Part shown: one piece after another, positions 24,503 through 32,574 of the stretch
Numbering within the stretch: position 1 is the stretch's first letter
Layout: the number at the start of each line of letters is the position of its first letter
Source: Bdellovibrionales bacterium
GTDB taxonomy: Bacteria > Bdellovibrionota > UBA1018
NCBI GenBank assembly: GCA_016786465.1
Contig: JAEUWC010000030.1
Location: 1 to 64,000, forward strand
Reading direction: 5' to 3'
DNA: 64,000 nt
Notes under the pieces: generated by a model
The model's database searches: none
What the model was told of the DNA's origin: nothing
Seen by the model: the letters and a program-made list of their open reading frames with translations, nothing else
Position numbers and translations under genes: made by a program

Positions 24503-24526
24503 TGAAACGCCTTCATGGAGGAAGGT

Positions 24527-25378
24527 ATGGGCTTACGGATTAATACAAACGTGCCTGCGCTGATCGGACAGCGCAACTTGCGCGTGAACCGTTCAGCCTT
24601 GGATCGTTCGCTGGAACGATTGGCTTCCGGATCCCGAATCAATCACGCTGGTGACGATGCTGCTGGACTTGCGATTTCTGAATCGCTTCGCGCACAACTT
24701 CGCGGTTTGGGACAAGCGGAACGGAACGCTCAAGACGGAATTTCCTTAATTCAGGTCGCCGAAGGCGGTCTGACTGAAATCTCAAATATCCTCGTTCGTA
24801 TGCGGGAATTAGGCGTTCAAGCCGCTTCAGATACGATCGGCGAAAACGAACGGAAGTTCTTGGACATCGAATTCCAACAGCTTCTGGAAGAAATCGACCG
24901 GATCGCGAAGAGTACCGAATACAACGGGGTCCCCCTTCTTGCGGGTACATCTGGAACTTTCGAAGTTCAGGTGGGCACGCGCAACAACCCCATGATCGAT
25001 CGAATCAAGCTTTTCGATTCGACGTCCGCCGACGTGAACGTCGTGTCGTTGGGGATCAATCTTTCGAACGTGGCCGACAAGGCCAGCGCTCAGAACGTCC
25101 TAGGCGCCGTCGACACGGCACTGGGACAGGTCATCTCGATTCGTGCCGAATTCGGGGCGATGCAGAACCGCATGCAATCGGTCATCAACAACTTGATGAT
25201 CAGTCGCGAAAACATGGCATCTGCAAACAGCCGAATCCGCGACACCGACATCGCCGAAGAATCGACCGAACTGACGAAGAACCAAATTTTGATGCAATCG
25301 GGTGTGGCTGTCCTTGGACAAGCGAACTCGACGATCAAATCAGCACTGAACCTACTCGGAGGTGCTGGCCTTGGATAA
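24527..25378 (+). CDS. Flagellin (first of three)
   Basis: This 283-residue flagellin is the filament subunit secreted by the flagellar type III apparatus. It has the N-terminal D0/D1 helices (MGLRINTNVPAL, SGSRINHAGDDAAGLAISE) and C-terminal helices ending ANSTIKSALNLL. The central domain is short, so the filament surface is mostly D1. An ATG at 24515 lies inside the ribosome binding region; ATG 24527 after GGAGGAAGG gives the family start. Probably driven by the sigma-28 promoter at 24375. Confidence 0.96.
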   Translation: MGLRINTNVPALIGQRNLRVNRSALDRSLERLASGSRINHAGDDAAGLAISESLRAQLRGLGQAERNAQDGISLIQVAEGGLTEISNILVRMRELGVQAASDTIGENERKFLDIEFQQLLEEIDRIAKSTEYNGVPLLAGTSGTFEVQVGTRNNPMIDRIKLFDSTSADVNVVSLGINLSNVADKASAQNVLGAVDTALGQVISIRAEFGAMQNRMQSVINNLMISRENMASANSRIRDTDIAEESTELTKNQILMQSGVAVLGQANSTIKSALNLLGGAGLG

Positions 25379-25664
25379 CTCAATAAGGAGAGTGAAACGA
25401 CCATAACCCAGTCGTCATACGGATAAACGATTACTAGAAGTGTGTCCCTTCGCGGTTTGAACGCGCGGGGAAATTTCGAAACCCGTTTATCGGAAAAAAG
25501 TTTACCCGAAGAGCATGGCTCGCGCCTGTTCTTGTTTCCTGGATGATGTCGCTCCACGCGTGAAGCACGGCCAAGATGGCACGGCTTCACGTGTGAGCGC
25601 CTCAAAACCAAACGAAACAGAACCGTCGACCGAAAATCGGTCTGATTTGCGCGGCTAGCATCAA

Positions 25665-25683
25665 AAAGTGCTCAGAGCACTTT
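25665..25683. repeat. AAAGTGCTC-A-GAGCACTTT palindrome
   Basis: A 9-bp perfect inverted repeat with a single central base, preceded by GCATCAAA. The same GCATCAAAA-GTGCTCAGA order occurs in the right arm of the 16301-16521 element, so this is probably a degenerate solo relative. Confidence 0.6.
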
Positions 25684-25889
25684 CGGCTTTCGGGACACAG
25701 GATTCTCAAGGCGAGATGGGCTTGTCTTGAGATAGGAAGCCACGGTTTTGTGGGGGAGAAGGATCTTCTTCACAGCCAGGCAAGGTGCGGGAACACTTTG
25801 CTTGTCATGGACTGAGTTGGCTTTCGAAGCTGCACGGACTTGACCATAGGGCCGCGCAGTTGAATCGACATGAACAGCATGGATGCTGG

Positions 25890-25909
25890 CGTCGTGATGG
25901 ATCACGACG
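25890..25909 (+). promoter_or_regulatory. Hairpin in leader of flagellin 2
   Basis: CGTCGTGAT (25890-25898) and ATCACGACG (25901-25909) form a 9-bp perfect inverted repeat about 42 nt upstream of the flagellin ATG. The probable ribosome binding site GGGAGG lies downstream of it and stays free. It could be an mRNA leader stem or a protein binding site. Confidence 0.45.
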
Positions 25910-25950
25910 AGTTTCACGGAGGAATCGTATGTTGAAGGGAGGCTAGTTAT

Positions 25951-26784
25951 ATGGGTTTACGTATTGCTACAAATACCACTGCGCTCAACGCGCAGAGGCA
26001 GATGACCGGAACTCGGTTGGCATTGGATAAATCATTCGAACGCTTGTCCAGCGGATCTCGCATTAACCATGCGGGTGATGATGCTGCAGGATTGGCGATT
26101 TCGGAAAACCTACGGGCACAGATCCGGGGTTACCGCCAAGCACGCAGAAACGCGCTAGACGGGATTTCTTTGATCCAAGTCACTGAGGGTGGATTGAACG
26201 AAATTTCAAACATGATCGTGCGACTCCGAGAATTGGCCATCCAGGCTGCTTCTGACACGATCGGCGACACGGAAAGACAGTTCACAGACCGTGAATTCCA
26301 GTCGCTTAAACAAGAAATGGATCGGATCGCGAACGTTACGGCGTTCAACGGAACTCCGCTCCTGAACGGAAAAGCCGGGATTTTCGAAATCCAGGTGGGT
26401 ATCCAAAACAATCCGATCCTAGATCGGGTCGTTTACAACGGTGAACGCGCAGACTCCTCGCTCGATGCTTTGAAATTGGGCGGAGAATCGGTGGCCACCA
26501 AGCAAGGTGCCCAATTGTCACTCGCGGTGATCGACGATTCCTTGATTCGCGTGAATAGTATTCGCGCCGATCTGGGTGCGATGCAGAACCGCCTCCAGTC
26601 GACGATTAACAACCTGGCAATTTCTGAAGAAAACTTGGCAGCAGCCAACAGCCGTATCCGCGACACGGACATGGCGGAAGAAGTCTCGGAATTGACCAAG
26701 CAGAACATCCTGATGCAGTCCGGTATCTCGGTACTAAGTCAGGCGAACGGTGTGAACCAAGCTTCTCTGAAGCTGCTAGGGTAA
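25951..26784 (+). CDS. Flagellin (second of three)
   Basis: This 277-residue flagellin has the same layout as its neighbours: MGLRIATNTTALNAQRQ at the N-terminus, SSGSRINHAGDDAAGLAISENLRAQ-like D1 helix, a very short variable core around LLNGKAGIFEIQVG, and C-terminal SGISVLSQANGVNQASLKLLG. The ATG has a GGGAGG site 9 nt upstream. It is closer in length and core sequence to flagellin 3 than to flagellin 1, so genes 2 and 3 are probably the younger duplicate pair (by eye). Confidence 0.96.
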   Translation: MGLRIATNTTALNAQRQMTGTRLALDKSFERLSSGSRINHAGDDAAGLAISENLRAQIRGYRQARRNALDGISLIQVTEGGLNEISNMIVRLRELAIQAASDTIGDTERQFTDREFQSLKQEMDRIANVTAFNGTPLLNGKAGIFEIQVGIQNNPILDRVVYNGERADSSLDALKLGGESVATKQGAQLSLAVIDDSLIRVNSIRADLGAMQNRLQSTINNLAISEENLAAANSRIRDTDMAEEVSELTKQNILMQSGISVLSQANGVNQASLKLLG

Positions 26785-26817
26785 AACCGTCCGGAAAGTT
26801 AGGTAACTAACCAATCA

Positions 26818-26885
26818 TGTGATCTTGGGTGGTGGAGGACTGTATCTCCACGATTTCGAAGGAATGAGAACCCTCTGGGATCACA
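26818..26885 (+). promoter_or_regulatory. Structured leader of flagellin 3
   Basis: An outer 7-bp stem TGTGATC (26818-26824) / GATCACA (26879-26885) encloses an inner stem GTGGAG (26832-26837) / CTCCAC (26846-26851). The outer stem ends just before the GAAGGG ribosome binding site of the flagellin, so it could sequester or expose it. A further GTTAG-GTAA-CTAAC hairpin lies just upstream (26798-26811). Confidence 0.5.
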
Positions 26886-26897
26886 GAAGGGAAAACC

Positions 26898-27731
26898 ATG
26901 GGCTTGCGAATAGCGACCAATATTACGTCGCTCAACGCCCAGCGGAATTTGTCAGCCTCACGGTTGGCGCTCGATAAGAACTTAGAGCGCTTAGCCAGTG
27001 GCAGTCGAATCAACCGCTCGGGGGATGATGCGGCAGGTATGGCGATCTCGGAAAACCTGAAAGCTCAGATCCGCGGGATGCGGCAGGCAAAGCGAAACGC
27101 TTTGGATGGCATCTCACTGGTCCAGACTTCCGAGGGTGGATTGAACGAAATTTCATCCATGCTCGTCAGGTTAAGGGAACTGGCAATCCAGGCAGCGTCA
27201 GATACGATCGGAGAACCCGAACGTCTGTTCACTGACCGAGAATTCCAGTCGCTGAAGCAGGAAATTGACCGAATTTCCAACATTACCGTCTTCAACGGCA
27301 CACCGCTTTTGAACGGTAAAGGAGGGATCCTCGAATTTCAGATCGGGATTAGAAATAACCCGATCCTGGACCGAGTGATCTACAACGGAGACCGGTCAGA
27401 TGCGACTTTGGACGCCTTAAAAATGGCGGGAGAGTCGGTGGCAACCAAGCAAGGAGCACAGCTGTCGCTGGAGGTGATTGATTACGCCATCCAGAAGGTC
27501 AGCAGTGTCCGAGCGGATCTAGGCGCACTGCAGAATAGACTACAATCCACGATCAATAACTTAGCGATCGCGGACGAAAACCTCTCTGCTGCGAATAGTC
27601 GAATCCGGGATGCCGATCTTGCTGAAGAGACCGCTGAATTGACTCGAAACAATATTCTGATGTCGGCAGGTATTTCTGTCCTAGGTCAGGCTAACAGTAC
27701 GAACCAAGCTGCGATAAAGTTGTTAGCGTGA
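26898..27731 (+). CDS. Flagellin (third of three)
   Basis: This 277-residue flagellin has MGLRIATNITSLNAQRN, SGSRINRSGDDAAGMAISENL and a C-terminus ISVLGQANSTNQAAIKLLA. Its central region is as short as that of flagellin 2. Codon choice differs somewhat from the first two copies. The TGA stop (27729-27731) overlaps the GTG start of the next gene as GTGA, which links filament production to an RmlD-like protein. The 113-nt upstream gap has no clear sigma-28 site but a double stem (26818-26885), so it may be read from upstream or from an unrecognised promoter. Confidence 0.96.
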   Translation: MGLRIATNITSLNAQRNLSASRLALDKNLERLASGSRINRSGDDAAGMAISENLKAQIRGMRQAKRNALDGISLVQTSEGGLNEISSMLVRLRELAIQAASDTIGEPERLFTDREFQSLKQEIDRISNITVFNGTPLLNGKGGILEFQIGIRNNPILDRVIYNGDRSDATLDALKMAGESVATKQGAQLSLEVIDYAIQKVSSVRADLGALQNRLQSTINNLAIADENLSAANSRIRDADLAEETAELTRNNILMSAGISVLGQANSTNQAAIKLLA

Positions 27732-30740: not shown

Positions 30741-30908
30741 AAGAAGTACCCCGAACTCGATGGCGTCAATGGAACCCCAGAATGTAACGTGGGCGCCGTA
30801 TTGCAGCTTTAGGCTTCCTAGTAAACTAGGCATGCTCACCACTGCTAGAGACAGCCCCCTGGGCTATTGACTGTCGGGTCCAATTACTTATCACCGAACC
30901 CGGGGCAC
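30741..30908 (-). ncRNA. ssrS: 6S RNA
   Basis: This is the regulator that mimics an open promoter and binds sigma-70 RNA polymerase. Read on the minus strand, a 17-bp closing stem pairs 30908-30892 with 30762-30746 without a mismatch (wobbles included). The conserved core GGTGAGCATGCC, a CTAG-TTTA-CTAG apical hairpin and GAAGCCTAAAGCTGC match the E. coli 6S core (GGTGAGCATGC...GAAGCCTTAAAACTGC), and a CACGTTACATTC segment recalls the ACACATTCACC region. GCAG/CTGC closes the central bubble. The length of about 168 nt is typical. A TATAAT box lies just upstream. It is followed by a hypothetical gene and not by ygfA. Confidence 0.88.
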
Positions 30909-30913
30909 CTTTG

Positions 30914-30942: not shown

Positions 30943-31047
30943 GGAACGGGAAAATTTTTTTAATCAAGGAAATTGACCCTATTTAAAAAAAGCCAAATGC
31001 GTTCAGCGCTTTACAGGGGGCTGGGGAAGTGACAAAATTTTCGCACC

Positions 31048-32574
31048 ATGCCTATGCGGAAGCTTTTAGTCGCGGATGACAGCTTGACTATCCAAAAAGT
31101 CATTCGCCTTGCTCTGTCCAATTCGCCCGGCGAAGGATACGAAATTCAAACCGTTTCCGACGGAAACGATGCGATTCAGCAGATTTTGTTGTTCCGTCCG
31201 CACCTGGTTTTAATTGACGTCAGCTTGCCCGGTAAAAACGCTTTCGAAGTCAAAGCGGCAATCAATGAACATGCCGATCTTTCAGAAGTTCGATTCGTTT
31301 TAATGTCCAGCGCCTTTGAAAAGTACGACGAATCGCAGGCAGACTCGGTCGGGTTTCATGGAAAACTGACCAAGCCTTTTGATCCCGCACACCTTCGCAG
31401 CGTTTTGGATCAGGCGATTCAGCAAGTCGTTCAAAAGCGGATGGAAAAAACGGAATTCATCCAGGCTCCATTGGCGGCATCTTCCGCGCCAGGGCAAGCG
31501 CCAGCGGTGCCGACCTTGCCCAAGTCCGCACCTGAAATTTACGACCCAAGCAAGATCATTGATCTGGCCCCTATGAAAGCTTCCGAAGTCGAACCCGTGA
31601 TGGGTGCGATTCCACCGGCGCTTCCGGGTGATTTTTCGGCAGCGGAAAATTGGAGCGTTCAAGGCCCTGGTTCAGCGACAAGCCCATCGCTTTCAATGCC
31701 GCCTGCAACACCACCCGCACCCCCAGCGGCGCCGTCGGGCGGACAAAATTTTTCAAGCGACACGGATATTAAGGAACTGACCGAATCCACGATTCGAATG
31801 AGCGGTTTGGATCAGTGGGCGCTTGAAGAAAAAACGGTACCGAATTCGGTGCCGCCATCAATGCCAGCGCACGATCATCACGTCGAAGACGCGCATCCCG
31901 CATTTGGCGCTGAACCGAACCCGCCAGCGGGACCCACGTCGGGGGGTGGGATCGCTTTTGAAATTGGTGAAAGAACCTTAAGCAATCTACGAAACCAGAC
32001 GCCGGGTCTTCCGCCACTCGGTGCGCAGGCCGATTTTTCGGGAATCCAGTTTCGGATTGATGATCCGACGATCGATCCTTTGAATTCAATGCCCGAATTT
32101 CGCCCCGAAAATGCGGAAGCTGTCGAATCCGAAGAATCCACGCTTCGTCTAGATCCGCCTAGCCTGGATTCAGCGACGCCGGGTTTTGAACTTAAAGAAC
32201 CCACGGTTTCGTCGCAGTACGATCCAGAACCCGAAGGCGAAGAAGCCGCTTCGATTTCGACCTTCGGATCCAGTGCCTTTTCCAAGACGCCGCCGCCTCC
32301 GCCGTCGCAGCGTTCGGCGCAAGCGACTCAGTTTACGGAATATTCTCCGCAGGCCTATGTTGAACCGGCCGAAACACATCGGGCGCAGAATCATCACAGC
32401 GGACACACGCAGTCCCACGAAGAAATTTCACCACTTTCTGATGAAAGACTTGAAATGATGATTCGCAAGCAATTGGAATCCCAGTTTCAGGCGGTCGTCG
32501 AACGCGTGCTTCCTCAGATCGCTGAAAAAGTAATTCGTGAAGAAATTGCTAAATTGCTTCGCGAAGGGCCCTAA
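31048..32574 (+). CDS. Response regulator with long disordered linker and C-terminal helix
   Basis: This 508-residue protein has a REC domain at about residues 4-125 with acidic D10/D11, phospho-acceptor D57 and the KPF loop (K109). Residues 140-455 are Pro/Ser/Glu-rich and probably disordered. They contain six [ED]-x-T-[ILV] motifs, with T at 248, 263, 310, 341, 365 and 386. The last 45 residues (DERLEMMIRKQLESQF and VVERVLPQIAEKVIREEI) are like the C-terminal helix of delta-proteobacterial regulators with no DNA-binding domain. So it likely works by protein contact, and no kinase gene is in the window. The stop TAA interlocks with that of birA (CTAA 32571-32574). Confidence 0.85.
   Translation: MPMRKLLVADDSLTIQKVIRLALSNSPGEGYEIQTVSDGNDAIQQILLFRPHLVLIDVSLPGKNAFEVKAAINEHADLSEVRFVLMSSAFEKYDESQADSVGFHGKLTKPFDPAHLRSVLDQAIQQVVQKRMEKTEFIQAPLAASSAPGQAPAVPTLPKSAPEIYDPSKIIDLAPMKASEVEPVMGAIPPALPGDFSAAENWSVQGPGSATSPSLSMPPATPPAPPAAPSGGQNFSSDTDIKELTESTIRMSGLDQWALEEKTVPNSVPPSMPAHDHHVEDAHPAFGAEPNPPAGPTSGGGIAFEIGERTLSNLRNQTPGLPPLGAQADFSGIQFRIDDPTIDPLNSMPEFRPENAEAVESEESTLRLDPPSLDSATPGFELKEPTVSSQYDPEPEGEEAASISTFGSSAFSKTPPPPPSQRSAQATQFTEYSPQAYVEPAETHRAQNHHSGHTQSHEEISPLSDERLEMMIRKQLESQFQAVVERVLPQIAEKVIREEIAKLLREGP

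Follow-up and report, generated by a model that had tools for sequence, protein, structure and literature searches.

A conserved linker module and a repeated threonine motif in a divergent RomR of a Bdellovibrionales bacterium

In predatory and gliding bacteria, RomR is a marker of the cell pole. In M. xanthus, the RomR linker alone is targeted to the pole (PMC3441718), the C-terminal region (RomR-C) oligomerises the protein (PMC10329633), and W394 is needed for binding of MglC (PMC12719032). In B. bacteriovorus, RomR acts as a hub at the pole and has numerous partners (PMC11025332); strain HD100 contains MglA but not MglB (PMC3983030), and its RomR has lost the functional receiver residues through a late start (PMC6428892). 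The linker of RomR has been reported as not conserved, which left this pole-targeting region without an obvious residue to mutate. We analyzed a romR-like gene in a 64,000-nucleotide stretch of a Bdellovibrionales genome (hereafter the window; contig JAEUWC010000030.1), and its linker contains a module of 30 residues, two of them near-invariant, that is retained by the 49 RomR orthologues found in one order, so that a defined peptide is available for pull-down and mutagenesis work.

The window protein shares with M. xanthus RomR (MXAN_4461) a receiver domain, an unstructured Pro-rich linker, and a Glu-rich C-terminal helix that carries the Pro and the E402 position (table 1). The receiver contains the acidic pair, the phospho-Asp (D57) and the Lys; the linker has 50 Pro in 326 residues, with pLDDT mostly below 50; and Pro489 and Glu493 of the 42-residue helix correspond to P398 and E402 of M. 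xanthus RomR. The RomR-C profile (A1) matched exactly one protein in the genome of the window, with E = 1.5e-18, and one protein per genome in 202 of the 241 genomes of the phylum. MglA is also encoded by a single gene here, and the single copy of romR, its co-occurrence with MglA and its shared neighbours all agree with RomR orthology. However, the two proteins differ at the W394 position, which is Glu in the window protein and, in the 47 order orthologues for which it could be read, R, Q, K, E, A or H and never Trp; in the same table, 18 of the 21 others, from outside the order, have Trp, and six further outgroups were mostly without it. Because of this substitution, the sequences place the window gene among a Trp-less group of RomR orthologues and not with canonical RomR; it is a divergent RomR. 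In addition, unlike the M. xanthus system, no match to MglB (PF03259) was detected in the window genome, with a profile that is weak even for positives. Elsewhere in the order, only two weak PF03259 matches were obtained, and in the class outgroups G055–G057 the weak matches adjoin mglA.

Table 1. Features of the romR-like gene (window coordinates).
Feature	Residues	Coordinates	Strand	Remarks
romR-like CDS	508 aa	31048..32574	+	receiver, disordered linker and RomR-C helix
Receiver (REC) domain	7-120	31066..31407	+	DD10-11, D57 and K109 present; Pfam PF00072 E=9e-14; alignment
Linker	135-458	31450..32421	+	P/A/S/E-rich; predicted disordered except 237-251
Module, helix half (SDTDIKELTESTIRMSGL)	237-254	31756..31809	+	holds motif T248; 49/49 order orthologues; AlphaFold helix
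Module, Trp arm (DQWALEEKTVPN)	255-266	31810..31845	+	holds W257 and motif T263
Extra copy FEIGERTL	304-311	31957..31980	+	T310
Extra copy FRIDDPTI	335-342	32050..32073	+	T341
Degenerate copy VESEESTLRL	359-368	32122..32151	+	T365; ESTLR resembles ESTIR of the helix half
Extra copy FELKEPTV	380-387	32185..32208	+	T386
RomR-C helix	465-506	32440..32565	+	Pro489 and Glu493 kept; W394-equivalent is Glu

The original prediction described the linker as carrying six copies of one Thr-centred motif. The six [ED]xT[ILV] sites are where it had placed them (T248, T263, T310, T341, T365 and T386; codons 31789–32205), and their flanks were also correctly described, with an aromatic or aliphatic residue at -6 in five of the six (W257, F304, F335, V359 and F380; the other is K242) and a hydrophobic residue at -4 in five of the six (the exception is S361). 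The view that all six are copies of the same motif did not hold, and two kinds were distinguished: T248 and W257/T263 are the halves of one module, and the other four sites are absent from the orthologues.

The module, DI[KR]xLTEST[ILV]x[ML]SG[LM]xxFxW[SNG][VIM]xE or a close variant, occurs in 49/49 orthologues of the order (48 by regular expression and one, L017, by reading), which were retrieved with the whole protein and not with the linker motif. T248 and W257 were invariant in 30/30 aligned orthologues and nearly invariant overall, and the T263-equivalent was Ser or Thr in just 16 of 47 orthologues and otherwise Ala, Gly, Lys or Leu. Among the 241 genomes of the phylum, the module profile (A2) matched only at romR (E<0.02), and no module was found with it in a set of 26 RomR proteins that do not belong to the order. 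AlphaFold, from an alignment of 7 sequences and with a pTM of 0.34, predicted residues 237–251 as the sole helix in the linker (pLDDT ~70). The conserved positions 241, 244, 245, 248 and 251 lie on one face of this helix (p = 0.025 for a conservation period of ~95–100 degrees); T248 shares this conserved arc with I241, L244 and M251. The module is modelled as an amphipathic helix followed by an extended Trp arm. No account of linear motifs in RomR was found in the library of papers searched, and the linker module is not described for RomR. The orthologue linkers also have weaker motifs in common: LW[DE] precedes the module in 13 of 42 orthologues, and [DE]xxx[ST][ST]F follows it.

The remaining copies (F304, F335, T365 and F380) are peculiar to the window species, whose genus is represented by one genome, and F304, F335 and F380 fall in parts of the linker that have no counterpart in the orthologues (alignment A3). 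By eye, FELKEPTV comes nearest of them to W-S-V-x-E-P-[ST]-L, the consensus of the order. Compared with shuffles of the same linker, [ED]xT[ILV] was found 6 times versus 0.35 expected, and PhixPhix[ED]xT[ILV] 4 times versus 0.013 expected. To correct for choice by eye, we enumerated every residue-class pattern of 4 or 5 positions spanning up to 8 residues; in the 322-residue linker the highest score went to [FWY]x[ILV]x[DE]xT[ILV] with its sub-patterns, present in 4 copies (p ~0.001–0.004 versus shuffles). The 4-position score of 8.92, versus a null of 5.5+-0.7, was reached by none of 1000 shuffles, and the 5-position score of 11.85 by none of 250. After residues 135–266 were cut out, the three F copies still formed the best pattern (p = 0.012 for 4 positions and 0.004 for 5). 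This pattern tops the enumeration only in the window's linker among the linkers listed (that of the window and those of 26 orthologues), and the motif count was 4 in the window RomR and 0 in the other 54 open reading frames of the window. The repeated motif in the linker is real; neither composition nor selection by eye accounts for it. Two weaker tests gave the extra copies no support: they were not significant in BLOSUM self-similarity (p 0.13–0.24), and with a PSSM built from the Trp arm of the orthologues the F copies did not rise above shuffles (p 0.96), so that their likeness to that arm is one of pattern only. Recent DNA duplication was rejected as the origin of the copies, whose cores share just 9–16 of 24 nt, and the sole DNA repeat among them is the ESTIR/ESTLR pair, identical at 13 of 14 nt.

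The existence of the motif and its conservation or non-randomness are thus established at the level of sequence, and its function can be proposed from what is published on RomR. We proposed, with slightly better than even confidence, that the RomR linker strings together short motifs for docking a polar partner, acting multivalently, with T248 packed in the interface. Because the linker alone targets the pole, RomR-C oligomerises the protein and RomR acts as a hub, these published properties, together with the anatomy of the linker, suggest both docking and added valency. The helix would dock on a groove of the polar partner through the face formed by I241, L244, T245, T248 and M251, W257 would fill a second pocket, and the F copies would raise valency or affinity at the same pocket or one related to it, once the protein has been oligomerised at the pole by RomR-C. 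In that case, the Thr residues would be packing or turn residues and not obligatory phospho-acceptors. Candidate partners are the known proteins of the polarity hub, including MglA, TPR/SgmX-type proteins, CdgA and pilus regulators. The earlier suggestion that the motifs dock a partner was strengthened in so far as the module is kept throughout the order and the other copies form a non-random set, with docking as the predicted role of both. Orthologues with unrelated linkers lacking the motif, which had been named as counter-evidence, were found for the extra copies but not for the module.

An alternative also raised by the original prediction is a phospho-switch, in which a Ser/Thr kinase phosphorylates the Thr residues and FHA domains read the phospho-motifs. 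The genome encodes kinases and FHA domains (2 Pkinase and 6 FHA matches), which makes such recognition possible; the sites have acidic residues at -2, and T248, which does not vary in the aligned orthologues, behaves as an essential phosphosite also would. However, the T263-equivalent is often Ala, Gly or Lys and so is no conserved phosphosite, T248 shares the conserved face with I241, L244 and M251, and its invariant partner residue is a Trp and not a charge. FHA domains usually read the +3 residue, and the +3 residues of the six sites differ (M, N, N, P, L and S). Thus, phosphorylation with FHA reading gained no support and is in our view decidedly unlikely, and docking is a more probable role of the repeat than phosphorylation. 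We judged similarly improbable that the aromatic/aliphatic-acidic repeats are stickers, driving self-association or condensation of RomR at the pole without docking on a folded partner. The spacing of aromatic residues along a disordered Pro-rich linker and the oligomerisation by RomR-C (PMC10329633) would suit such a role, but a position-specific pattern of 8 residues and a conserved module sequence exceed what stickers need.

Two further readings concern the target of the module and the status of the extra copies. The module could fold back on the receiver or on RomR-C and control access of their partners; the linker is long enough for this, and the module and the receiver are conserved in the same orthologues. 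Nevertheless, the confidence of AlphaFold in any domain arrangement was low (the pTM given above, from a weak alignment), M. xanthus receivers and disordered regions have been reported not to interact (PMC10329633), and a single receiver would have no need of four or more sites, so that we consider intramolecular docking distinctly improbable. It is also unlikely that the extra copies are products of chance or composition and that the module alone is functional: their absence from the orthologues and the BLOSUM and PSSM results are what chance copies would give, but the search-corrected enumeration without the module and the lack of copies in the other reading frames of the window argue against it. 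The preferred reading, a multivalent docking linker, can be extended to a scenario that we regard as doubtful, though with a somewhat greater chance than any of these alternatives. The RomR of the order would have lost the C-terminal Trp that holds MglC, with MglB seemingly lost as well; the new Trp module in the linker would anchor another polar partner, and the window species would have multiplied the motif into a multivalent tether. A general coupling of Trp loss to module gain was weakened as a candidate because other lineages lost the RomR-C Trp without having the module.

The RomR of B. bacteriovorus HD100 (Bd2761; L084), which we identified by MALRVLLADESSTIKKVMQLAL, the D11E12/M20QLAL signature published for Bd2761, has the same architecture as the window RomR, and its RomR-C was matched by profile A1. 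The two differ in three respects: HD100 RomR-C keeps the Trp whereas that of the window does not; the window RomR keeps the functional receiver residues, unlike HD100 RomR; and the HD100 linker has conserved blocks of its own (GGWAHQDLTKFKI) without the module of the window's order. The block GGWAHQDLTKFKI is lineage-specific to the Bdellovibrio-type RomR linkers (L084–L088), and another set of RomR linkers (L093–L095) has W-x-[VI]-[DE]-like motifs, each linker with two or three. Generic enrichment of [FWY]x[ILVM]x[DE] was not found in other RomR linkers outside the module, and in the outgroup linkers only a W-x-[VIM]-[DE]-type motif was enriched. As read from their sequences, RomR linkers bear different motif sets in different clades, which illustrates lineage-to-lineage turnover of putative docking motifs in a bacterial hub, and the module may reveal how the pole is read in relatives of Bdellovibrio that lack MglB.

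PopZ, which has no receiver domain, resembles RomR as a polar hub with a disordered Pro/acidic linker and C-terminal oligomerising helices. The RomR-C helices weakly matched DUF2497 (PF10691), the C-terminal domain of PopZ (PMC5182065), in 10 of 12 and 12 of 22 scans and in 0 of 10 reversed scans (alignments A1 and A5). All matches with a stated cut-off fell under that cut-off, the best with E 4e-4, and the window protein stayed below the gathering score of PF10691 (16.2 bits versus 27); a PDB search with RomR-C gave no match. This likeness may represent remote homology of two oligomerisation domains of polar hubs, or convergent amphipathic helices.

The gene order 6S RNA-romR-birA of the window is shared with G055, an outgroup of the same class whose RomR-C keeps the Trp. 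A 6S/SsrS RNA gene (30744–30909, minus strand; RF00013, 73 bits) is placed upstream of romR in the window and points away from it; this divergent arrangement recurs in G055 (L113) and in 14/14 locus records of relatives that were scanned, some of them from the same genome twice. Downstream, birA follows romR in relatives of the window species and in G055, and it adjoins romR in G064. A conserved block, GCTTTACAG...GGAAATGACACACTTT (window ~31008–31045), directly precedes the romR start codon in five relatives and is possibly a promoter or leader element. Farther upstream, three tandem flagellin-like genes followed by a sugar-nucleotide epimerase-like gene (24515–27728) form a cluster that is kept upstream of romR in relatives.
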